From positions 1-13,785 of the forward strand of contig JBHIBR010000011.1 in assembly GCA_046759145.1 (NCBI GenBank): a DNA stretch of 13,785 nucleotides. Direction: 5' to 3'. The notes beneath the pieces were generated by a model. That model was given only the letters and a program-made list of their open reading frames with translations, was not told the DNA's origin and did no database searches. The stretch is from JBHIBR01 sp046759145 [NCBI: Nitrospinota bacterium] (GTDB lineage: Bacteria; UBA8248). Shown piece by piece: positions 1-9,368 of this stretch. The position numbers and the translations under genes are program-made. Position 1 is the stretch's first letter. Each line of letters starts with the position of its first letter.

Positions 1-18
1 TCCCGGGCCGGGGGGGGG

Positions 19-654
19 GTGGACGCGGCCCCCCCCACCCGCGCGCCCCGGGGGGAGGGGCGTCTTCTCCGGCGCTATCGGGCGCGGGCGGACGGCCTCT
101 ACGAGTCGCTCCCCCCGGGGGAGCGAGGGGGGGCCTTCGAGAAGCTCCACGCCGCCTTCTTCGAGGAGCTGGGCTTTTCCTCGCTCCTGCAGCGAGGGGT
201 GGAGGAGTTCCCGGCCCTCTCCGAGCGCCTGGAGGGCCTCTTCGTCTTTCCCGCCGCCCACGAGCGCGAAGAAGGGGTGGAGCTCGGCCGGGAGGCGCCT
301 CGCCTGGGGCTCCGCCTGCGGGCCGAGCGCTTCGCCGAGCCGGATGGCCTCGCCCGTTTCCTGCGGAGAGCCCTCACGCGGGCCTCTCTCCTGCTGGACG
401 AGCCCTTCGGCTACCGCCCGGAGGAGGTCCCCGGGCGGAGGGGCCCGCGCGCCCCGGGCGAGCGCTGTCCCCTTTGCGAGTTCCCCACACACGCCTGGTC
501 CTACCCGAGCGGCGGGGCGCAGGCGGAGGTGGTCGCGGCCATCCGGGAGGACTTTCCCCACTGGGCGCCCGAGGATGGCCTCTGTTCCCGCTGCCTCGAA
601 GGCTACCGGCTCCGCGTGGCCTGGGGGGCGAAACGCAGTTTGGCCCCGAATTGA
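19..654 (+). CDS. Unrecognised protein with C-terminal zinc-ribbon-like CxxC pairs (possibly 5' partial)
   Basis: I do not recognise this 211-residue protein. The first two thirds are rich in Arg, Glu, Leu and Ala with no membrane segment or signal peptide. The last third has CPLC (residues 150-153) and CSRC (189-192), 35 residues apart, the spacing of a small zinc-binding ribbon, so a cytoplasmic metal-binding, adaptor or chaperone-like protein is plausible. Third-position GC bias is very strong, as in the genes right of the respiratory operon and unlike the operon itself. The GTG at base 19 follows a run of ten G and has no distinct ribosome binding site. The frame stays open to base 1, so the true start may lie outside the window. 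It ends 142 bases before the molybdoenzyme operon on the same strand; a functional link to it is only possible. Being a real gene is likely; its function is unknown. Confidence 0.7.
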   Translation: MDAAPPTRAPRGEGRLLRRYRARADGLYESLPPGERGGAFEKLHAAFFEELGFSSLLQRGVEEFPALSERLEGLFVFPAAHEREEGVELGREAPRLGLRLRAERFAEPDGLARFLRRALTRASLLLDEPFGYRPEEVPGRRGPRAPGERCPLCEFPTHAWSYPSGGAQAEVVAAIREDFPHWAPEDGLCSRCLEGYRLRVAWGAKRSLAPN

Positions 655-796
655 CCGCTCCGGAGGAGATTTTGGGTCGCTTCGGCCCTTGGAGTGGCCG
701 TTTTGTGCTAGGATGGCTTCAACCAAGGAACCAAATGGGAAATCTCGGAGATTCGGTTAACTGGAAAGCCAAGCTAAGGAATGGGGGGGATGAGAA
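655..796 (+). promoter_or_regulatory. Leader region of the respiratory operon
   Basis: This 142-base gap marks the shift from about 73% GC to the more moderate GC of the operon and must hold its promoter if the operon is transcribed on its own. I found no convincing -35/-10 pair: TTGACC at 650-655 and TAGGAT near 710 are not properly spaced with partners. There is no FNR-type TTGAT-N4-ATCAA box. A G-rich Shine-Dalgarno-like stretch (783-790) lies about 6 bases before the GTG start of the catalytic subunit gene. The palindrome inside the gap is listed separately. Confidence 0.4.
741..753. repeat. 13-base palindrome AATCTC-G-GAGATT upstream of the molybdoenzyme operon
   Basis: AATCTCGGAGATT reads the same on both strands apart from its central base: six-base perfect arms around a single G. 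It lies 43 bases before the GTG start of the catalytic subunit gene, where an operator or short hairpin could act on the operon. It matches no site I know for FNR, NarL, NnrR or ModE. Chance occurrence is possible in a leader this long. Confidence 0.4.
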
Positions 797-3700
797 GTGG
801 AGCTGACGAGGAGGAAGTTTTTAGGGATTGCAGCGGCAGGAGCTGGGCTGGTCTTTGCTGAGAATGTCTTTGCCTTCCGGACGCTCAGGCCTGCCCTCGA
901 GGTCGGAAATCCGTTGGAAACCTATCCCGTTAGGAATTGGGAGGAGATCTATCGGGATCAGTATCGGTTCGATAGGACCTTCACTTACGTCTGCTCCCCA
1001 AATGACACCCACGCCTGCCGGGTGCGGGCCTTCGTGAGGAACGGCGTGGTGATGCGCGTCGAGCAGAACTACGACAGCCAAAGGATCAAGGACCTCTATG
1101 GCAACCAGTCCACCCACCATTGGAACCCCAGGATGTGCCTGAAAGGCTATACCTTCCACCGAAGAGTCTATGGCCCTTACCGACTGAGATACCCCATGAT
1201 CCGCAAGGGCTGGAAGCGGTGGGCCGATGATGGCTTTCCCTCGTTAAGCGGGAATCCTGGGCTTCGGACGAAATACAAGTTCGACAGCCGGGGGGCAGAT
1301 GAGTTTGTACGGGCCTCCTGGGATGAGGTCAGCACCTACCTGGCCAATGCTCTCATCACCATCGCCAGAACTTATAGCAGTGAGGAGGGCAGGCGTCGTC
1401 TTCTGATGGACGGGTATCCCCCCGAGATGCTGGAGCACTGGGGGGGTGCGGGAACCCGGACGATGAAGTTCCGTGGGGGGATGGGGCTGCTGGGAGTCAT
1501 CGGCAAATACGGGCTTTACCGCTTCTCAAACATGATGGCTCTTGTCGACGCCCATGTGCGTGGGGTGGGCCCGGAAAAAGCGTTGGCCGGCCGGAACTGG
1601 TCCAACTACACCTGGCATGGCGACCAGGCCCCGGGACATCCCTTCGTCCACGGTCTCCAGACCTCTGACATTGACCTCAATGACTATCGGAATTCCAAGT
1701 TCACCGTCCATGTGGGCAAAAACATGATCGAGAACAAGATGCCGGAGGCCCACTGGTTCGTTGAGATGATGGAACGGGGTGGTCGCATCGCGGTCATCGC
1801 GCCCGAGTATAACCCGCCGGCCACCAAGTCAGACTACTGGATCCCCGTGCGCCCCGGTCTTTCAGACATCTCCATATTTTTATACGTAGCGAAAGCCCTG
1901 ATGGATAAAGGCTGGGTGGATTACGACTTCGTCAAGAGGTTTACCGACTTCCCCCTCCTCGTCCGCATCGACACTTTAAAGAGGCTTAGGGCCCACGAGG
2001 TCTTCCCCGACTACAAGCCCGGCCTCCCCAAGGACGGCCCCTCTTTCGCCATCCAGGGGCTGAAGGAGGACCAGTACAAGAGTGTGGGGGACTTCGTGGT
2101 TTTTGACAAAAAGACGGGTTCCGTTAAAGCCGTCACCCGGGATGATGTGGGGGAGGGGCTCACGGTCAAAGGGATCGACCCCGAGCTGGGGTGGAAGGGC
2201 AAGGTAAAACTGGTGGACGGCTCCCAGGTGGAGGTCTTGACCCTCTGGGAGATGTACAAAGTCCACCTGCGGGACTACGGCCTAGGGACGGTTTCCGAGA
2301 TCACGGGCGCCCCCAAGAAGCTTCTGGAGCGGCTGGCCGGGGATTTCGGCAGGAGGTTCTGGGACCCCGACTTTATGGGGAAGCCCCGCGAAGCCTACCC
2401 CATCTCCGTCCATTACGGGGAGGGAATCAACCACTACTTCCACGCTACGCTACACAACCGCGCTACCTATCTACCCCTGATGCTGGTTGGGAGCATCGGT
2501 GTCCCCGGCTCCGGCTCCCACACGTGGGCCGGTAATTACAAGGCAGCGAATTTCCAGGGCTCCAGGTGGAGCGGCCCCGGCTTCAAGGGTTGGGTAGCAG
2601 AAGATCCCTTCAACCCTAACCTGGACCCGGCAGCCGATGCGAAGGAGATCCGGGTAAGGCCCCACGCCAGGGGGGAGGAGGTAGGCTACTGGGCACACGG
2701 AGAAAGGCCCCTGATCGTCCCTACCCCCAAATACGGCCGAAAGGTGTTCACTGGCAAGACCCACATGCCCACGCCAAGCAAGGTGGTATGGTACACCAAT
2801 GTGAACCTTATCAACAACGCCAAGTGGGCCTACCACCTTATCAAGAATACCAACCCCAAGATCGACATGATCGTCACCCAGGATATCGAGATGACGGGGA
2901 GCGCCGAGTATTCCGATGTGATCCTGCCCGCCAACTCCTGGATGGAGTTCGAGACACTTGAGATTACCTCCTCCTGCTCCAACCCCTTCCTCCAGTTGTG
3001 GAAGGGAGGGATCAAGCCCCTGTACGACAGCCGTGATGATACGCTAATCATGGCTACCGTCGCCGAGAAACTCGCAGAGTTGGCAGGCGACAAACGCTAT
3101 AGGGACTACTGGAAATTCGCCCTGGAGAAGAAGACGGAGGTCTACATCCAGCGCTTGCTGGGCGGCAGCACCACTGGCCGAGGCTATGAAGTGGGCGACA
3201 TCCTGGCCGGTAAATACGGAGAACCTGGCAGCAGTTTGATGCTCTTCAGGACCTATCCTCGGATACCCTTCTGGGAGCAGGTCCACGAGAGCGTCCCCTT
3301 CTACACAGACACGGGGAGGCTTCACGCCTACTGCGACATTCCAGAGGCCATCGAGTACGGTGAGAATTTTGTTGTCCACCGGGAGGGGCCCGAGGCTACC
3401 CCCTATCTTCCCAATGTCATCGTGAGCACCAACCCCTTCGTCAGGCCCGACAACTACGGCTTCACCCCGGAGATGCTTCGGCGGGGGAACGGATTAGACT
3501 GGGAGTCAAGGCATGTGGCCAACAACAAGCTCCCCTGGTCCAAGGTGAAGGAAACCAGAAATCCATTGTGGGAGAAGGGCTTCCGGTTCTTATGCGCTAC
3601 CCCTAAGAGTCGCCACACCGTCCACTCCCAGTGGACTGTTACCGACTGGAACTGGATCTGGAGCCAGAATTTCGGGGACCCCTACCGCATGGATAAGAGG

Positions 3701-4297
3701 CAACCTGGCGTGAATGACTGGCAGATCCATATGAACCCCCAGGCCGCTAAGGACCTGGGCATTAACGACGGGGACTACGTCTATGTAGACGCCGACCCGG
3801 CCAATCGCCCCTACATAGGCGCCAACCCTGCGGACCCCTTCTACAAGGTCTCCCGTCTGATGCTCCGGGTCAAATACAATCCCTCCTATCCTTACCACTT
3901 CACGATGATGAAGCACGCCTCCTTTATCTCCACCGAGCGGACGGTTAAGGCGCATGAGGAGAGGCCCGATGGCAGGGCCCTCTCCCCCACGGGCTACCAG
4001 GCCAGCTTCCGCTACGGCTCCCAGCAGAGTCTCACCATTTCCTGGCTGATGCCGATGCACCAGACCGATTCCCTCTTCCATAAGAAGAAGGTGGAGATGG
4101 CTTTTACTTTCGGCTTCGAGTCGGATAACCACGCTATCAACTCGACCCCCAAGGAGACGCTGATCAGGATCGCCAAAGCCGAGGACGGTGGCTTGGGCGG
4201 AAAGGGCCTCTGGAAGCCGGCCAGAACGGGGTTCAGCCCGGACAACGAAAGCGACTTCATGGAGCTATACCTTCAGGGAAAATTAGTAAAAACATAA
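797..4297 (+). CDS. nxrA: NxrA-like periplasmic molybdopterin oxidoreductase, catalytic alpha subunit
   Basis: Catalytic subunit of the type II DMSO reductase family. It matches the nitrite oxidoreductase alpha subunits of Nitrospira and anammox bacteria closely and throughout, as I recall them, and is similar in length (1166 residues; about 1150 expected). The N-terminus has a twin-arginine signal (TRRKFLG, residues 4-10) followed by a hydrophobic stretch, so the folded enzyme should go to the periplasm. The FS0 iron-sulfur ligands appear to be C66, D70, C74 and C114, Asp taking the second Cys position. D276 in WHGDQAPGHP aligns with the aspartate that binds molybdenum in NarG. A C-terminal molybdopterin-binding domain starts near residue 975. 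The start is GTG, preceded by GGGGGGGA. Family assignment is very secure. Substrate and direction (nitrite oxidation, nitrate reduction, or another oxyanion) are inferred and unproven. Confidence 0.93.
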   Translation: MELTRRKFLGIAAAGAGLVFAENVFAFRTLRPALEVGNPLETYPVRNWEEIYRDQYRFDRTFTYVCSPNDTHACRVRAFVRNGVVMRVEQNYDSQRIKDLYGNQSTHHWNPRMCLKGYTFHRRVYGPYRLRYPMIRKGWKRWADDGFPSLSGNPGLRTKYKFDSRGADEFVRASWDEVSTYLANALITIARTYSSEEGRRRLLMDGYPPEMLEHWGGAGTRTMKFRGGMGLLGVIGKYGLYRFSNMMALVDAHVRGVGPEKALAGRNWSNYTWHGDQAPGHPFVHGLQTSDIDLNDYRNSKFTVHVGKNMIENKMPEAHWFVEMMERGGRIAVIAPEYNPPATKSDYWIPVRPGLSDISIFLYVAKALMDKGWVDYDFVKRFTDFPLLVRIDTLKRLRAHEVFPDYKPGLPKDGPSFAIQGLKEDQYKSVGDFVVFDKKTGSVKAVTRDDVGEGLTVKGIDPELGWKGKVKLVDGSQVEVLTLWEMYKVHLRDYGLGTVSEITGAPKKLLERLAGDFGRRFWDPDFMGKPREAYPISVHYGEGINHYFHATLHNRATYLPLMLVGSIGVPGSGSHTWAGNYKAANFQGSRWSGPGFKGWVAEDPFNPNLDPAADAKEIRVRPHARGEEVGYWAHGERPLIVPTPKYGRKVFTGKTHMPTPSKVVWYTNVNLINNAKWAYHLIKNTNPKIDMIVTQDIEMTGSAEYSDVILPANSWMEFETLEITSSCSNPFLQLWKGGIKPLYDSRDDTLIMATVAEKLAELAGDKRYRDYWKFALEKKTEVYIQRLLGGSTTGRGYEVGDILAGKYGEPGSSLMLFRTYPRIPFWEQVHESVPFYTDTGRLHAYCDIPEAIEYGENFVVHREGPEATPYLPNVIVSTNPFVRPDNYGFTPEMLRRGNGLDWESRHVANNKLPWSKVKETRNPLWEKGFRFLCATPKSRHTVHSQWTVTDWNWIWSQNFGDPYRMDKRQPGVNDWQIHMNPQAAKDLGINDGDYVYVDADPANRPYIGANPADPFYKVSRLMLRVKYNPSYPYHFTMMKHASFISTERTVKAHEERPDGRALSPTGYQASFRYGSQQSLTISWLMPMHQTDSLFHKKKVEMAFTFGFESDNHAINSTPKETLIRIAKAEDGGLGGKGLWKPARTGFSPDNESDFMELYLQGKLVKT

Positions 4298-4306
4298 AGG
4301 GGTGAG

Positions 4307-4645
4307 ATGGTGAAGAAAGAGTTTGATGCCCATGACCCCATGGAGCTGGTAGGGGTGGCACTCCCTGGAGGGGATCTCGAGCGGATGGCGGAGTGCTTCG
4401 TGGAGGAGTACATCCGGGCCGGCTGGGACGATGAAAGTCTACTTCGCCTCTTCCGAGATCCCTTTTACCGGGCCACCCATAGGGTCTACCAAGAGAAGGG
4501 CGAAATGTATGTCCGCCGCCTCATTGCCACGCTGAGGCGGAGATGGGGGTATTGGAAGGACGAGGACATATCCCGCCGGCTTGGTCAGGACGAGCTTAAG
4601 AAACGGCGTCTTGAGGAGGCGAAGAGCGATGGCAAACTGGCATGA
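4307..4645 (+). CDS. Small 112-residue protein encoded between alpha and beta subunit genes, function unknown
   Basis: I cannot name this protein. It starts 9 bases after the alpha subunit stop (AGGGGTGAG just before ATG), and its last 17 bases overlap the beta subunit gene, so it is a co-translated operon member. It has no Cys, no signal peptide and no membrane segment. It is highly charged and probably all helical, with aromatic-rich patches around residues 30-70 (YIRAGWDDESLL, LFRDPFYRATHRVY) and a very basic, coiled tail. This suggests a cytoplasmic assembly factor or small accessory subunit that handles the alpha or beta protein before export. Base composition matches the neighbouring respiratory genes. 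Role is inferred from position only. Confidence 0.82.
   Translation: MVKKEFDAHDPMELVGVALPGGDLERMAECFVEEYIRAGWDDESLLRLFRDPFYRATHRVYQEKGEMYVRRLIATLRRRWGYWKDEDISRRLGQDELKKRRLEEAKSDGKLA
4613..4619 (+). promoter_or_regulatory. Ribosome binding site fixing the beta subunit start
   Basis: GAGGAGG lies 9 bases before the ATG at 4629. This favours 4629 over the upstream in-frame ATG at 4581, and the resulting N-terminus (MANWHEVYNWQLGRKM) matches the start of known NxrB proteins. The site lies inside the preceding small gene, consistent with translational coupling. Confidence 0.75.
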
Positions 4646-5915
4646 GGTTTACAACTGGCAGCTCGGAAGGAAGATGGCCTATCCCTATGAGGAGGCCCAT
4701 CCCAGGTGGCAGTTCGCTTTCGTGTTCAACACCAACCGCTGCATCGCATGCCAGACCTGCACCATGGCCTGTAAGTCCACCTGGACCTTCTCCAAGGGCC
4801 AGGAGTTCATGTGGTGGAACAACGTAGAGACGAAGCCGTATGGGGGCTACCCTCAGTTCTGGGATGTGAAGACCCTCAGGCTTTTGGAAGAGGCCAACGC
4901 CGGTGGACAGGTCTGGGATACTGCGCAGAAGGATGGGGGCAGGCGCCCCTACGGCACCTTCGATGGGATCACCATCTTTGAGGCGGCCATCAAACGCTAC
5001 GGTCCTGAAGGGCATCAACGAGCTGTCGGTTATATCCCTACCGACGAGGAGTGGCGCTTTCCCAATATTTATGAAGACACGGCCACAGGCCACGAAGGAG
5101 CCCTCGGCAAGTGGGGCGATTCGGCAGAGCTGCCCGAGCACAGAACCTGGTTTTTCTACCTCCAGCGGATCTGCAACCACTGCACTTACCCGGCCTGCCT
5201 CGCTGCATGCCCCAGAAAGGCCATTTATAAAAGGCCCGAGGATGGGATCGTTTTGATCGACCAGAAGCGCTGCCGGGGCTATGGAAAATGTGTCGAGGCC
5301 TGTCCTTACAAGAAGCCAATGTTCAGGGGGACAACAAGAATTACGGAGAAATGCATCGCCTGCTATCCCAGGATCGAGGGGAAAGACCCGCATATTACCC
5401 CCGATGGGGCCCCCATCGAGACCCGCTGTATGACCGCCTGCGTGGGGAAGATTCGGCTGCAGGGCTTGGTCAGGATCGACGAAAAGACCGGCGACTGGGC
5501 GGAGGATCGCTATAACCCGCTCTATTTCCTGGTCAAGGTGGAAAAAGTAGGCCTTCCCTTGTATCCACAGTTCGGAACCGAGGCGAATGGCTACTACATC
5601 CCTCCGAGGTGGGTGCCGCGCCCATACTTAAGACAGATGTTCGGCCCCGGGGTGGATGAGGCCATTGAAAGGTACACGGCCCCCTCCAGGGAGCTTCTGG
5701 CCGTTATGCAGCTTTTCCGGGCCCAGCAGAAGATCATCTACCGGTATGAGATTAAGAAAGGACCGAAGATCTTCGAGAGAACCGTCAACGGGAAGAAGTG
5801 GGAGATGTACAACGACACGGTCATCGGCTTCGACAAGAACGGCAAGGAGGTTGTAAGTCTTACCGTCGAGGAGCCAAAACACGTCAGGCCCGATAAGCAC
5901 TATAACTCTATTTAG
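4629..5915 (+). CDS. nxrB: NxrB-like iron-sulfur beta subunit
   Basis: Electron-transfer subunit with four iron-sulfur clusters, 428 residues, almost exactly the length of Nitrospira NxrB. Cluster ligands in order: C38, C41, C44, C48; C182, C185, C190, C194; C215, Y218, C221, C225; C242, C245, C267, C271. Tyr218 sits where NarH has a Trp replacing a Cys, which predicts one [3Fe-4S] and three [4Fe-4S] clusters. Stretches such as FSKGQEFMWWNNVETKPYGG, RPEDGIVLIDQ and MFGPGVDEAIE are hallmark NxrB sequence. There is no signal peptide, so the protein should be carried out by the Tat signal of the alpha subunit. The start at 4629 is set by a strong ribosome binding site and overlaps the preceding small gene by 17 bases. 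The DdhB/EbdB/SerB/PcrB subunits are relatives, but the match to NxrB is closer. Confidence 0.93.
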   Translation: MANWHEVYNWQLGRKMAYPYEEAHPRWQFAFVFNTNRCIACQTCTMACKSTWTFSKGQEFMWWNNVETKPYGGYPQFWDVKTLRLLEEANAGGQVWDTAQKDGGRRPYGTFDGITIFEAAIKRYGPEGHQRAVGYIPTDEEWRFPNIYEDTATGHEGALGKWGDSAELPEHRTWFFYLQRICNHCTYPACLAACPRKAIYKRPEDGIVLIDQKRCRGYGKCVEACPYKKPMFRGTTRITEKCIACYPRIEGKDPHITPDGAPIETRCMTACVGKIRLQGLVRIDEKTGDWAEDRYNPLYFLVKVEKVGLPLYPQFGTEANGYYIPPRWVPRPYLRQMFGPGVDEAIERYTAPSRELLAVMQLFRAQQKIIYRYEIKKGPKIFERTVNGKKWEMYNDTVIGFDKNGKEVVSLTVEEPKHVRPDKHYNSI

Positions 5916-5926
5916 GGGAGAGGACG

Positions 5927-6682
5927 ATGAATCTGGAAGAGGCCTCCAGGCGCGCGCTGGCCAGGAGCCGTGTTTATAGCTTCCTCTCTCCTCTTTTTTT
6001 ATACCCAGATGAGGAGATCTTCTCTGACCTAAACTGGGAGGGGGCAAAGGAAGCCCTAGCCCTCCTCGGAAACCCCGACGGCCTCAAAGAGGCCATCGAA
6101 TCCCTAGGGGGCTGTCTGAAGGACCCCGTGGATCTTGAACGGGAATACGTAAGGGTCTTCGGCCACACGATCTCGACGGAGTGCCCGCCCTATGAGACCC
6201 AGTACGGGAGTGCCCACGTCTTTCAGCAGGCCCAGAACTTAGCCGACATTGCCGGCTTTTATCGGGCTTTCGGTCTGGAGGTCTCAGACCAGGTTAAGGA
6301 GCGACTCGACCATGTCGCCATCGAGCTGGAGTTCATGGCGGTTTTGGCTTACAAGCAGGCTTACGCTTTGGCCTCTGGTTCGGAGGATAAAGCCGAGGTC
6401 TGCCGGGAGGCCCAGAAGAAGTTCTTGAACGATCACCTGGGCCCGTGGGTACCGCTTCTCACCAAGCGTCTTGAGGCGAAAGATGGCTTTTACCAAAGGC
6501 TTGCCCTGCTGACGGAGATGTTTCTGGCTTTCGAGGTCGAAGCGTTCGGGGTAAAGCCCTTATTAGTAGAGAGCTTGACACCGACCCCCTTGGAGCCGGA
6601 TGGGAGTTGCTTCTCCTGCGGGGTCGAGGATCATAGTTTACCAACGGAGGGATCGTCATGGGGAGAATCTGTGGAGGGATAG
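5927..6682 (+). CDS. TorD/NarJ/DmsD-type molybdoenzyme maturation chaperone
   Basis: A 251-residue, mostly helical cytoplasmic protein of the TorD/NarJ family. These chaperones bind the Tat signal and body of the catalytic subunit, aid cofactor insertion and hold back export until assembly is complete. Family features seen: an N-terminal helical stretch SRVYSFLSPLFLYPDEE (14-30), the EC-PP-YETQYG segment (85-94) and the LDHVAIELEFM helix (127-137). The C-terminal tail carries CFSC (228-231), which could bind metal or be incidental. The gene starts 11 bases after the beta subunit stop with GGGGAGAGG before ATG. Its end overlaps the gamma subunit start by 25 bases, so the two are probably co-translated. 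Its place in the operon identifies the alpha subunit as the likely client. The symbols nxrM, narJ and ebdD have been used for equivalents. Confidence 0.88.
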   Translation: MNLEEASRRALARSRVYSFLSPLFLYPDEEIFSDLNWEGAKEALALLGNPDGLKEAIESLGGCLKDPVDLEREYVRVFGHTISTECPPYETQYGSAHVFQQAQNLADIAGFYRAFGLEVSDQVKERLDHVAIELEFMAVLAYKQAYALASGSEDKAEVCREAQKKFLNDHLGPWVPLLTKRLEAKDGFYQRLALLTEMFLAFEVEAFGVKPLLVESLTPTPLEPDGSCFSCGVEDHSLPTEGSSWGESVEG

Positions 6683-8235
6683 CGATCGCCTTGTTTCCGC
6701 TCTTCGTCGGGGCCTCGGTTCAGGGTGCTGCCCCCCCCAAGTTGACGCCTGAGCTTCTGAAGCAGGGAAAGGCCCTTTACAATAAACAATGTGCTATCTG
6801 TCATGGAGCGGAAGGAAGGGGGGATGGCCCAGCTGCCGATTTCCTCTTCCCCAAGCCTCGAAACCTCACGACGGGGCTCTTTAAAATCCGCTCCACTCCA
6901 AGTGGTTCTCCCCCGACCGACCAGGACCTCTTCCGAACAATCACCAATGGGATACCGGGTTCCCTCATGCCCAATTTCTCCTTCTTTTCCGAGACGGAGC
7001 GATGGGCACTCGTGGCCTTTGTCAAGAAGCTTGGCGAAATTGAGGAAGAAGAACCGGAGAGGGTCATCCAGGCCCCGCCAGAGCCTCCCACAACCTCTCA
7101 GACCTTGGCACGGGGCAAAGAGCTTTACAGAAAGATGAAGTGTTGGGAGTGCCACGGCCTTGAGGGAAGGGGGGATGGCCCTACGGCGGATCAACTGTTC
7201 GATGACTGGGGCTTCCCTATTCCGCCTAACGACTTTACCCGTGGCATCTACAAAGGGGGCGGCAAGCCTTCCGATATCTACCTCCGATTTACGACCGGGA
7301 TGACCGGAACCCCCATGCCCTCCTACGAAGATCTGCTGAACGAAGCCGAGCGCTGGGCCTTAGTTCATTACGTCAAGTCACTGGCAGGCCCAAAGGTGGC
7401 TGTGCAGCCGACGACCGAGAGGATTGTGGCGAAGAGGGTCTCAGGCCCCGTCCCAAAGGATGCTTTGGACCCCTTGTGGAGTAGGGTCCCCGAGACGACG
7501 ATCCCCCTTATGCATCTCTGGCAGAGACGGAAGGCGGCTGATGCGATCTCAGTAAGGGCCGTCCACGACGGAAGGGAGATTGCCTTTTTGCTCGAGTGGG
7601 AGGACTGGGAGGTCAACTCGAGGTTTCTCCGCCACCAGGACTTTGCCGATTCAGCAGCCATCATGTTCTCACTCTCCCCGGATCTGCCCCTTTCCGAGCA
7701 GCCTCATTTTGCTATGGGGGAGAAAGGGAGGCCTGTCAACATCTGGTACTGGCGGCTCGACAGACAAATGGACCTCGCCGGCTTCCGGGACATCGAAACG
7801 GCCTATCCAAACATGGTCTCCGACGATTATCAGTTGGAGGCGGGCAGGTATCTGAAGGACGTCGAGAAGCCGAGCCATCTCCCCATCACATCGGCCCCCG
7901 CACATGACCCGGTCTTCATCACCGGCTGGGGTGCGGGCAACCCCCTCTCGATCCCCATGAGGCGTTCGGCCGTAGAGGACACCAACGCGGAGGGGTTTGG
8001 AACTCTCACCACTCAGCCCCAGAAGGATCAGGACGTGAAGGGCCAGGGTCTTTACGTGGCAGGGAGATGGAGGGTTGTCTTCTTTAGAGAGCTTCGCTCA
8101 AAGGGGCCGTTCGATGTGCAGCTTAAAAACGGGGGTCAGTTCCCCGTCGCCTTTGCTGTCTGGGATGGCTCCAAGGGGGACCGGGATGGCCAGAAGTCGG
8201 TGAGCACCTGGTACACCCTGCAGCTCGCCCCTTGA
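6658..8235 (+). CDS. nxrC: NxrC-like gamma subunit: two cytochrome c domains fused to a heme b domain
   Basis: Exported 525-residue electron-exit subunit. Residues 1-24 form a Sec-type signal peptide (hydrophobic core IAIALFPLFVGA). Cytochrome c domain 1 has CAICH at 45-49 with M104 as probable distal ligand; domain 2 has CWECH at 162-166 with M220 in GTPMPSY. From about residue 255 to the end the protein resembles the heme b subunit of ethylbenzene dehydrogenase and relatives, which uses a Met/Lys heme pair. M353 (HFAMGEKG) and K506 or K513 (GSKGDRDGQKS) are the candidates here. Electrons would pass from the beta subunit to heme b and then to the hemes c, or the reverse. Gamma subunits of this family with only the heme b domain are about half this length. 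There is no C-terminal membrane anchor. ATG at 6658 follows GGAGGG by six bases. Confidence 0.88.
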   Translation: MGRICGGIAIALFPLFVGASVQGAAPPKLTPELLKQGKALYNKQCAICHGAEGRGDGPAADFLFPKPRNLTTGLFKIRSTPSGSPPTDQDLFRTITNGIPGSLMPNFSFFSETERWALVAFVKKLGEIEEEEPERVIQAPPEPPTTSQTLARGKELYRKMKCWECHGLEGRGDGPTADQLFDDWGFPIPPNDFTRGIYKGGGKPSDIYLRFTTGMTGTPMPSYEDLLNEAERWALVHYVKSLAGPKVAVQPTTERIVAKRVSGPVPKDALDPLWSRVPETTIPLMHLWQRRKAADAISVRAVHDGREIAFLLEWEDWEVNSRFLRHQDFADSAAIMFSLSPDLPLSEQPHFAMGEKGRPVNIWYWRLDRQMDLAGFRDIETAYPNMVSDDYQLEAGRYLKDVEKPSHLPITSAPAHDPVFITGWGAGNPLSIPMRRSAVEDTNAEGFGTLTTQPQKDQDVKGQGLYVAGRWRVVFFRELRSKGPFDVQLKNGGQFPVAFAVWDGSKGDRDGQKSVSTWYTLQLAP

Positions 8236-8249
8236 GGGAGGGAGCCGCC

Positions 8250-9368
8250 CTAACCTCTGTGGTAGAAGTCGCGGATGGCACGGACGACGCAGCGCTGGGC
8301 CTCCTCGGGGAGCTCGGCATAGAGAGGAAGCGCCAGCACCTCGCGGCTCGCCCGTTCGCTCTCGGGGAAATCCCCCGGGAAGTAGCTCAGGGAGGCCAGG
8401 CAGGGCTGGAGGTGAAGGGGGAGGGGGTAGTAGACGCCGGTCTGGATGCCCCGGGCGGCGAGGGGCTCCCGGAGGGCGTCCCGGCGCTGGGCGCGGATGA
8501 CGTAGAGGTGGAAGACGTGTCGCCCGGCGCTGAGCGCAGGGGGCCGGACCTCGCGGCCCGCCAGCCCCTCTTCCTCGAGGAGCTCCCCGTAGCGGCGGGC
8601 CCGCTCGATCCGGGACGCGATCCAATCATCCAGATGGCGCAGCTTGACCCTGAGGATGGCCGCCTGGAGGGCGTCGAGCCGAAAGTTCCCGCCCACCTCC
8701 TGGTGGGTGTAGGGCTCCCCCGCCCCGTGGTCGCGGAGGCGCCTGAGCCGCTCGGCGAGGGGAGCCTCCCGCACCAGCACCATCCCGCCCTCGCCCCACC
8801 CGCCCAGATTCTTCGTGGGGTAGAAGGATAAACACCCGGCATCCCCCACCGACCCCGCCCGTCCCCCCTCCCCCTCCGCTCCGGTGGCCTGGGCGGCGTC
8901 CTCGATGAGGAAGAGCCCGTGCGCGCGCGCCAGCTCCGAGAGCGGCCCCAGCGCGGCGCACTGGCCAAAGAGGTGGACGGGAAGGAGTGCGCGGGTCTTT
9001 GGGCCCACTGCGCGTGCCGCTTTCTCCGGGTCCAGGTTAAAGGTCCCGGGCTCGATGTCCGCAAAAACGGGCCTGGCACCGACGCGGAGGATAGCCTCCG
9101 CTGTCGCGAAGAAGCTGAAGGCGGGCGTCACCACCTCATGGCCCGGGCCCACCCCGAGCGCCTGGAGGGAAAGGAGGAGGGCATCCGTGCCCGAGGAGAC
9201 CCCCACCCCGTGCCGGGCGCCGCAGTAGCGGGCCACCTCCTGCTCCAGCCCTTCGACCTCGGGGCCCAGGATGAATTGCTGGCTCGTGAGCACCCGCTGG
9301 AGCGCTTCCGAGAGTTCGCCTTCAAGCGCCCGGTATTGCTCGGTGAGGTCGAGAAGGGGGACGCGCAT
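8250..9368 (-). CDS. DegT/DnrJ/EryC1/StrS-family PLP-dependent sugar aminotransferase
   Basis: A 372-residue fold-type I aminotransferase of the kind that aminates keto sugars on nucleotide carriers for surface polysaccharides, glycans or glycosylated metabolites. The PLP-binding lysine is K186 in SFYPTKNLGG. D157 and Q160 in IEDAAQATGA contact the cofactor ring, and GTDAL (60-64) lies at the phosphate end. The N-terminal VPLLDLTEQY and C-terminal TGVYYPLPLHLQ segments are typical of the family, and length is normal. ATG is preceded on the minus strand by GGGAGAG. The gene is convergent with the respiratory operon, only 14 bases separating the two stop codons, and divergent from the DUF72 gene. 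No other sugar-nucleotide genes are in the window, so the exact sugar is unknown. GC content is high, like the right flank. Confidence 0.92.
   Translation of the reverse strand: MRVPLLDLTEQYRALEGELSEALQRVLTSQQFILGPEVEGLEQEVARYCGARHGVGVSSGTDALLLSLQALGVGPGHEVVTPAFSFFATAEAILRVGARPVFADIEPGTFNLDPEKAARAVGPKTRALLPVHLFGQCAALGPLSELARAHGLFLIEDAAQATGAEGEGGRAGSVGDAGCLSFYPTKNLGGWGEGGMVLVREAPLAERLRRLRDHGAGEPYTHQEVGGNFRLDALQAAILRVKLRHLDDWIASRIERARRYGELLEEEGLAGREVRPPALSAGRHVFHLYVIRAQRRDALREPLAARGIQTGVYYPLPLHLQPCLASLSYFPGDFPESERASREVLALPLYAELPEEAQRCVVRAIRDFYHRG

Follow-up and report, generated by a model that had tools for sequence, protein, structure and literature searches.

A complete nitrite oxidoreductase operon of the periplasmic type, probably acquired horizontally, in a GC-rich genome fragment

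Results

A five-gene nitrite oxidoreductase operon

A 13,785-nt stretch of contig JBHIBR010000011.1 (assembly GCA_046759145.1, a Nitrospinota bacterium), hereafter the window, carries five contiguous genes that probably form a complete operon for a periplasmic nitrite oxidoreductase (NXR) of the Nitrospira/Nitrospinota/anammox clade, acquired horizontally by a host whose DNA is rich in guanine plus cytosine (GC). According to PMC8387239, virtually all natural nitrate is made by NXR, and heterologous expression of anammox metalloproteins is not possible. A compact, intact cassette with a linked, uncharacterized central gene offers parts worth adding in expression trials.

None of the five open reading frames (ORFs; Table 1) has an internal stop, and their junctions are, in order along the operon, a 9-base gap, a 17-base overlap, an 11-base gap, and a 25-base overlap. 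The coordinates and spacing given in an earlier, sequence-only reading of the window, which described five contiguous genes with 9- to 11-base gaps or overlaps, are thus borne out. Pfam recognizes Molybdopterin (PF00384), Fer4 domains, and Nitrate_red_del (PF02613), and in the gamma protein cytochrome c domains plus EB_dh (PF09459); this agrees with the domains proposed earlier and refines gamma to two CxxCH motifs followed by a C-terminal haem-b domain. NCBIfam models of type II dimethyl sulfoxide (DMSO) reductases match alpha, beta, chaperone, and gamma, all under the curated cut-offs. The further description of the operon as NXR-type, complete, periplasmic (from its twin-arginine start), and foreign in composition to its surroundings is supported by the results below.

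The catalytic subunit belongs to the NXR clade

NxrA scores 1830.7 bits against NXR subunit A 7b04_B, from a structure that we take to be that of Kuenenia NXR; the runner-up is 4ydd_A, presumably perchlorate reductase, with 161.6 bits, and EbdA 2ivf_A reaches 122.1. NxrA is 66% identical to the Kuenenia-type row L161 and 26 to 40% identical to L006_0 (the second NxrA of locus L006), L001, L002, ClrA L089 (26%), and NarG L090. An 82-row FastTree placed it with support 100 in a 72-row clade of Nitrospira, Nitrospinota (L074, L075), and anammox-type rows (L161 to L163), the rows comprising no SerA, DdhA, EbdA, or named Nitrotoga. A 36-row IQ-TREE quick tree, in which L161 and L163 were the anammox-type rows, gave the same clade, there with 33 rows (SH-aLRT 99). 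In both trees NxrA stands apart, with support 100, from L006_0 and the haloarchaeal L001, whose label as periplasmic nitrate reductase (pNar)-type was assigned in this analysis and of which L001 is cut at the N terminus; in the larger tree only, it is also apart from L002, ClrA L089 (Ideonella, on a long branch), and NarG L090. The outgroup branches of these trees are long, and the tool's own warning calls such placement unreliable. The nearest NxrA rows, each 82% identical, come from metagenome-assembled genomes (MAGs) of Elusimicrobia and Desulfobacteraceae (support 100).

The type II DMSO reductases also include chlorate, perchlorate, and ethylbenzene enzymes and periplasmic nitrate reductases like those of Nitrotoga or the haloarchaea (pNar), and their operons are similar in content; the window operon could in principle encode one of these. 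Such an identity is nevertheless highly improbable: NxrA groups with NXRs and away from the pNar-type, L002, ClrA, and NarG rows, its identity to these is far below that to the Kuenenia-type row, and the perchlorate and ethylbenzene enzymes trail in bit score, although these are pairwise scores only. The sequence-only reading had named a grouping with ClrA, SerA, EbdA, or DdhA, outside NXR and pNar, as evidence that would count against it; the trees show no grouping with ClrA or with the pNar-type rows, and chlorate reduction, then offered as a possible function, gained no support. Judged by its sequence, the enzyme itself is of a known kind, the periplasmic NXR of the Nitrospira/Nitrospina/anammox clade.

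Metal and haem ligands match those of the Kuenenia enzyme

In the alignment, NxrA C66, N69, D70, C74, and D276 are the counterparts of Kuenenia Cys67, Asn70, Asp71, Cys75, and Asp275, and C114 is, by the motif, presumably the third cysteine of the FS0 cluster. NxrA has the FS0 pattern of three cysteines and one aspartate, the Mo-ligand aspartate, and the active-site asparagine; Cys67, Asn70, Asp71, and Asp275 are named for Kuenenia NXR in PMC8387239. In the Kuenenia Asp71 column, cysteine replaces the FS0 aspartate in 10 of the 82 NxrA rows; these include L013, which is a member of the NXR clade, and L002, ClrA, NarG, and L091. All 15 cysteines of NxrB are also cysteine in the Kuenenia-type row L161, as is expected of a subunit with four FeS clusters. 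By inspection, a twin-arginine motif (TRRKFLG) stands at the start of NxrA and none is present in NxrB, as is expected for export through the twin-arginine translocation (Tat) system.

The gamma protein has a hydrophobic N terminus and haem c motifs at CAICH 45 and CWECH 162. Its residues 31 to 246 match 6h5l_B ("conserved hypothetical cytochrome protein"; E 1.3e-70), presumably a Kuenenia protein, and residues 295 to 523 match NXR-C 7b04_C (E 8.2e-37). Met353 and Lys513 align with the conserved haem-b Met and Lys of Kuenenia-type NXR-C, given as Met155/Lys305 in PMC8387239.

The operon differs in composition from the surrounding DNA

The nxrA-nxrB core has a GC of 0.579 and its flanks 0.695, a difference of −0.116. 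For comparison, a single pattern scan of a species-genome collection confirmed 583 stretches, of which the best 80 served as related loci; in the 57 of them that had enough flank, the core-minus-flank difference averaged −0.006 (sd 0.034), and none was as low as in the window. This GC drop, larger than in any of the 57 related loci, is new here. The 18 loci whose flank GC is at least 0.65 keep a core GC of 0.608 to 0.697, so encoding NXR does not in itself require a GC as low as 0.579. GC at third codon positions is 0.69 to 0.78 in the five operon genes versus 0.85 to 0.95 in six neighbors, and GC steps occur at about 600 to 650 (from 0.75 to 0.58 in 300-base windows) and 8200 to 8250. Since the operon is set in DNA of very different composition, it was probably acquired from another microbe. 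The flanks of the nearest NxrA relatives have a GC near 0.56 (Elusimicrobia MAG) and 0.43 (Desulfobacteraceae MAG); composition and nearest relatives fit a recent movement between phyla, on the basis of MAGs and one window. L005 (337-5210), among the closest kin, shows the opposite contrast, with an NXR core GC of 0.54 and a flank GC of 0.43.

Several points weigh against horizontal acquisition: no mobile-element family was found by Pfam among the nine window proteins scanned, the window contains no tRNA, and the relatives are MAGs, in which misbinning can imitate transfer. The contrast could also reflect an assembly chimera, with which the sharpness of the GC steps on both sides would agree. 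We consider this unlikely, as the upstream high-GC neighbor belongs to an NXR-associated family (see below) that a random join would hardly have supplied, and 14 bases separate the end of nxrC from that of a convergent DegT gene, with no gene disrupted.

Candidate origins and hosts were sought and rejected. When 72,556 plasmids were searched with NxrA by tblastn, 227 records matched, with a best identity of 36.5% among the matches listed. The repeats in 600-8500 have little length and, for the most part, low identity, and none of the repeat families listed frames the operon. A DUF72 neighbor is 47 to 54% identical to proteins in 15 of 95 genomes (of the phylum of a Methylomirabilota locus) that match at E ≤ 1e-60, and a MetE-like neighbor reaches at best 44% among 27 genomes (G067, in the Methylomirabilota-phylum set); these identities are too low to name the host.

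Compact nxr clusters among uncultured relatives

No related locus extends beyond 10 kb from nxrB, which makes nearness a matter of construction, and weight is therefore placed only on exact order and on genome-wide searches; flanks are cut in some loci, so gamma and chaperone are undercounted. An nxrA-nxrB pair was seen at the thresholds used in 76 of the 80. The small gene occurs in 50 (hidden Markov model search) and lies exactly between nxrA and nxrB in all 49 loci that have it together with both; in the 50th, L067, it is upstream of nxrB where the contig begins. The order A-small-B-TorD-gamma is found with a gamma of the haem-b-only type in 12/80 loci, all from MAGs or uncultured bacteria. 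A fused gamma lies downstream, as in the window, in L003 and in L004 (with a zincin-like gene in front), and upstream of nxrA in 24/80. The zincin-like gene stands between TorD and gamma in three loci; the small gene is missing from L005 and L006, whose order is A-B-TorD-fused gamma, and L007 reads B-TorD-zincin-A-gamma. Only A and B are present in 22 loci (12 with full flanks), 21 of which fall in one Nitrospira-type tree branch, L054 not being in the tree. The remaining 10 are cut or single arrangements. From these gene orders, a compact nxr cluster is ordinary among uncultured relatives.

The earlier premise that known nitrite oxidizers keep gamma and chaperone genes elsewhere fits only the 22 Nitrospira-type A-B loci. 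Nitrotoga has two identical loci with NxrA, NxrB, a putative NxrC, and a chaperone (PMC6050957), and in PMC11009272 Chloroflexota and Nitrosediminicola keep these genes together, the NxrABC and chaperone NxrD of the latter being said to resemble those of Chloroflexota and Nitrotoga; the Kuenenia-type cluster reads C-B-TorD-zincin-A. Whether the five-gene order is standard in described nitrite oxidizers, which the sequence-only reading had taken as decisive against its special character, receives a divided answer: the order recurs in 12 of the 80 loci, but none of these is from a described nitrite oxidizer. Nitrospina is reported to have nxrABC operons, with another NxrC adjoining a TorD-like chaperone (PMC3578206). 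NXR-like genes have also been reported in non-anammox Planctomycetota (19 sequences; PMC10732223), and NXR-related NxrA/NarG in Sysuimicrobiota (PMC11604079). Since the L161 region also holds one, and the alternative NxrC of PMC3578206 is similar in outline, the fusion of diheme c and haem b in gamma is not new.

Other arrangements were encountered in the survey. L006 (1-10566), from a Nitrospinae MAG, has two tandem type II operons, one of true NXR type, whose nxrA is truncated at the contig end, and one that is distant and pNar-like. In L001 (8001-11464; Natronococcus occultus plasmid 2), an NxrA-like gene, unannotated in PLSDB's incomplete table, lies in two overlapping frames and is possibly frameshifted or a pseudogene. 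A conjugative plasmid of Alisedimentitalea scapharcae (L091, 1619-7148) carries chlorite dismutase beside a type II molybdoenzyme, FeS subunit, TorD, and cytochrome c, likely a chlorate-reduction cassette. The NXR cluster of L020, from a MAG titled Akkermansia muciniphila, falls together with those of other Verrucomicrobiota; the species label looks doubtful.

A small protein family linked to NXR

The 112-residue protein encoded between nxrA and nxrB represents an NXR-linked family without a Pfam entry, which is new here; the literature searched yielded no description of a gene in this position, a weak negative as most subscription journals were outside its scope. AlphaFold predicts five helices (mean pLDDT, a per-residue confidence score, 85.6). 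Pfam gave nothing for the window copy at E ≤ 1 and scattered matches for 36 members (best E 0.0044), Foldseek nothing at E ≤ 0.001, and VIA-align a best Z of 6.1 to an FF domain, in a range that the tool calls common. A profile search of PDB sequences returned two nominally significant matches, both to designed repeat proteins (E 1.1e-8 and 8.2e-7); they cover 22 positions, no single stretch of which passes by itself, and everything else stayed above 0.05. A remote relationship to TorD is conceivable. By inspection there is no signal peptide, so the protein is probably cytoplasmic.

A family model built from 36 nxr-adjacent proteins was searched against 924 genomes of four phyla; the centre genomes of these searches were chosen as NXR carriers, and at most 17 to 20 candidates were scored per genome in Chloroflexota, Planctomycetota, and Pseudomonadota, with misses possible. 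Matches were found in 5/251 Chloroflexota, 27/294 Planctomycetota (28 places), and 1/299 Pseudomonadota genomes (the L009 gene by coordinates), and in none of 80 Nitrospirota, a set without a positive control, for which the tool warns that an empty answer is uninformative. NxrA, NxrB, or both are adjacent at 33 of the 34 places; the genome with the exception (L130; G541 C32:31268-31486, E 1.5e-11) carries a further copy linked to NXR. Strong NxrB (E ≤ 1e-180) occurs in 44 of the 294 Planctomycetota genomes, 26 of which have the small gene; of the 18 that lack it, 13 have their highest score with the NxrB profile made from the window and Kuenenia and 5 fall elsewhere. All four Chloroflexota genomes with strong NxrB (E ≤ 1e-200) have the small gene. 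In that phylum, a short contig of G248 bears nxrA and the small gene; G158 lacks the small gene, and its only NxrB is a distant one. On the NxrA tree, the distribution of the small gene requires four changes.

The proposed assembly role of this protein is read from its position and co-occurrence, and it faces the lack of any small-family match in the 22 A-B-only loci, six Planctomycetota regions (three of them anammox-type), L005, L006, L007, L074, and L075; not every NXR, therefore, needs the small protein.

A sixth gene in a zincin-like family

By its family membership, the nxr cluster includes a sixth gene, upstream of the operon. A new finding here is that this gene (GC 0.753) is a member of a family that co-occurs with NXR and mostly bears HExxH. 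A first model found the family in 19 of the 80 nxr neighborhoods and three anammox-type clusters. A 16-row model found it in 44 of the 294 Planctomycetota genomes, of which 37 have strong NxrB, 2 partial NxrB, and 5 none at E 1e-100. The gene matched at 48 places in these 44 genomes, and 31 of the places, spread over 30 genomes, are no further than 10 kb from an NxrB. Seven strong-NxrB Planctomycetota genomes lack it, and of 11 with only distant or partial NxrB it is in two, both partial ones. In Nitrospirota it occurs in 13/80 genomes, the Nitrospira moscoviensis copy lying far from the L034 nxrAB.

Of 23 family members, 16 have HExxH and 21 a C-terminal CxxC pair. The predicted structure of the L008 copy (pLDDT 92.0) gave nothing in Foldseek at E ≤ 0.001, and the best Pfam match has E 0.027; a second look with VIA returned mostly zincins (Z ≤ 5.6). 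The label "zincin-like" thus denotes the motif plus weak structural matches and is not proof, and the family may be regarded as a candidate NXR maturation protease. We found no on-topic paper on NXR with HExxH, metalloprotease, or zinc in the literature searched, with most subscription journals outside its scope. From gene order, it probably corresponds to the "putative zinc finger" protein of PMC3578206 and to the "unknown protein" kustd1701 of PMC6423088.

In the alignment, HExxH and a segment in the middle are missing from the window copy, whose composition is host-like; this suggests that a resident nxr cluster was replaced. It is tempting to go further and assume that the small protein is a dedicated NXR assembly factor marking a large environmental NXR branch (Planctomycetota, Verrucomicrobiota, Chloroflexota, Omnitrophota, Pseudomonadota, and others), that the cassette moved between phyla as a unit, and that it replaced a resident nxr cluster of which the upstream zincin-like gene without HExxH is a remnant; taken together, this is a speculative proposal and rather doubtful.

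Table 1. Features of the window and copies of the zincin-like family elsewhere
Feature	Position	Strand	Remarks
nxrA, catalytic alpha subunit, 1166 aa	797..4297	+	GTG start, TAA stop; twin-arginine TRRKFL; Mo cofactor, FS0
Small gene, 112 aa, predicted all-helical	4307..4645	+	Between nxrA and nxrB; no Pfam family
nxrB, iron-sulfur beta subunit, 428 aa	4629..5915	+	71% identity to 7b04_A
TorD/NarJ-type assembly chaperone, 251 aa	5927..6682	+	PF02613 E 1.1e-26; TIGR03482 E 5.6e-29, under curated cut-off
Gamma (alternative-NxrC type), 525 aa	6658..8235	+	Diheme cytochrome c fused to haem-b EB_dh domain
Sixth gene (zincin-like family), cut by window edge	1..654	+	C-terminal CPLC...CSRC zinc ribbon; outside the five-gene interval
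Intergenic stretch ahead of nxrA	655..796		GC 0.535; GC step here and at end of upstream ORF
Zincin-like family copy, L161	6190-7158	−	HExxH family with C-terminal zinc ribbon
Zincin-like family copy, L008	350-1252		HExxH family with C-terminal zinc ribbon

Proposed mechanism and direction

NxrA and NxrB would fold in the cytoplasm, aided by the TorD-type chaperone, with the small helical protein possibly acting as a second assembly factor beside it, and would then be exported together via Tat on the NxrA twin-arginine signal. At the Mo site nitrite would be oxidized to nitrate, or the reverse, and electrons would pass from FS0 through the beta FeS clusters and the gamma haem b to the two fused haems c and on to a soluble carrier.

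Within the preferred reading of the operon as an NXR, the enzyme may run mainly in reverse in its host, as a periplasmic nitrate reductase fed via the fused cytochrome; we regard this as a serious possibility, though not the favored one. The Elusimicrobia and Desulfobacteraceae MAG hosts of the nearest relatives are not known to oxidize nitrite, which counts for it. NXRs are reported to catalyze both directions (PMC8387239), and NXR/NAR-like proteins of Nitrospinota outside Nitrospinia are considered more likely to reduce nitrate (PMC10839748). PMC6050957, however, calls the enzymes of Nitrospira, Nitrospina, and anammox bacteria exclusively NXRs, and the FS0 aspartate and haem-b Met/Lys match the Kuenenia enzyme, although these residues do not fix the direction. 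An nxrAB pair in a metagenome identifies neither the organism nor the reaction direction.

Comparison with known NXR systems

The window resembles the NXR of Kuenenia stuttgartiensis (kustd1699-1713; PMC8387239) in its metal and haem-b ligands and in sequence (A 66%, with L161; B 71%). The Kuenenia-type cluster also has neighboring TorD-type and zincin-like genes and a gamma in which diheme c and haem b are fused. Unlike the window, L161 reads gamma-NxrB-TorD-zincin-NxrA in the direction of transcription, with no small-family match in that region; its fused gamma is longer, with a hydrophobic C-terminal stretch beyond the end of the window gamma, and Kuenenia NXR-C, in contrast to the window gamma, is without CxxCH. 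Nitrospira NXR shares the clade and the adjacent nxrA-nxrB (NxrA 54% identical in N. moscoviensis L034), but the small gene, chaperone, and gamma were not found near A-B in the 22 Nitrospira-type loci, 12 of them with full flanks.

The loci of Nitrotoga and Chloroflexota nitrite oxidizers are, like the window, self-contained with chaperone and gamma (PMC6050957, PMC11009272), whereas Nitrotoga NxrA is placed in a sister clade (PMC6050957). The Chloroflexota loci surveyed here, none of which is from a named nitrite oxidizer, have mostly a haem-b-only gamma and possess the small gene. A further close counterpart is L003 from the Elusimicrobia MAG, which has the same five-gene order and fused gamma (NxrA 82%, NxrB 85%); unlike in the window, there is no contrast in GC between its operon (0.57) and the DNA on either side (0.56), and the zincin-like gene was not found on the 17.7 kb examined.

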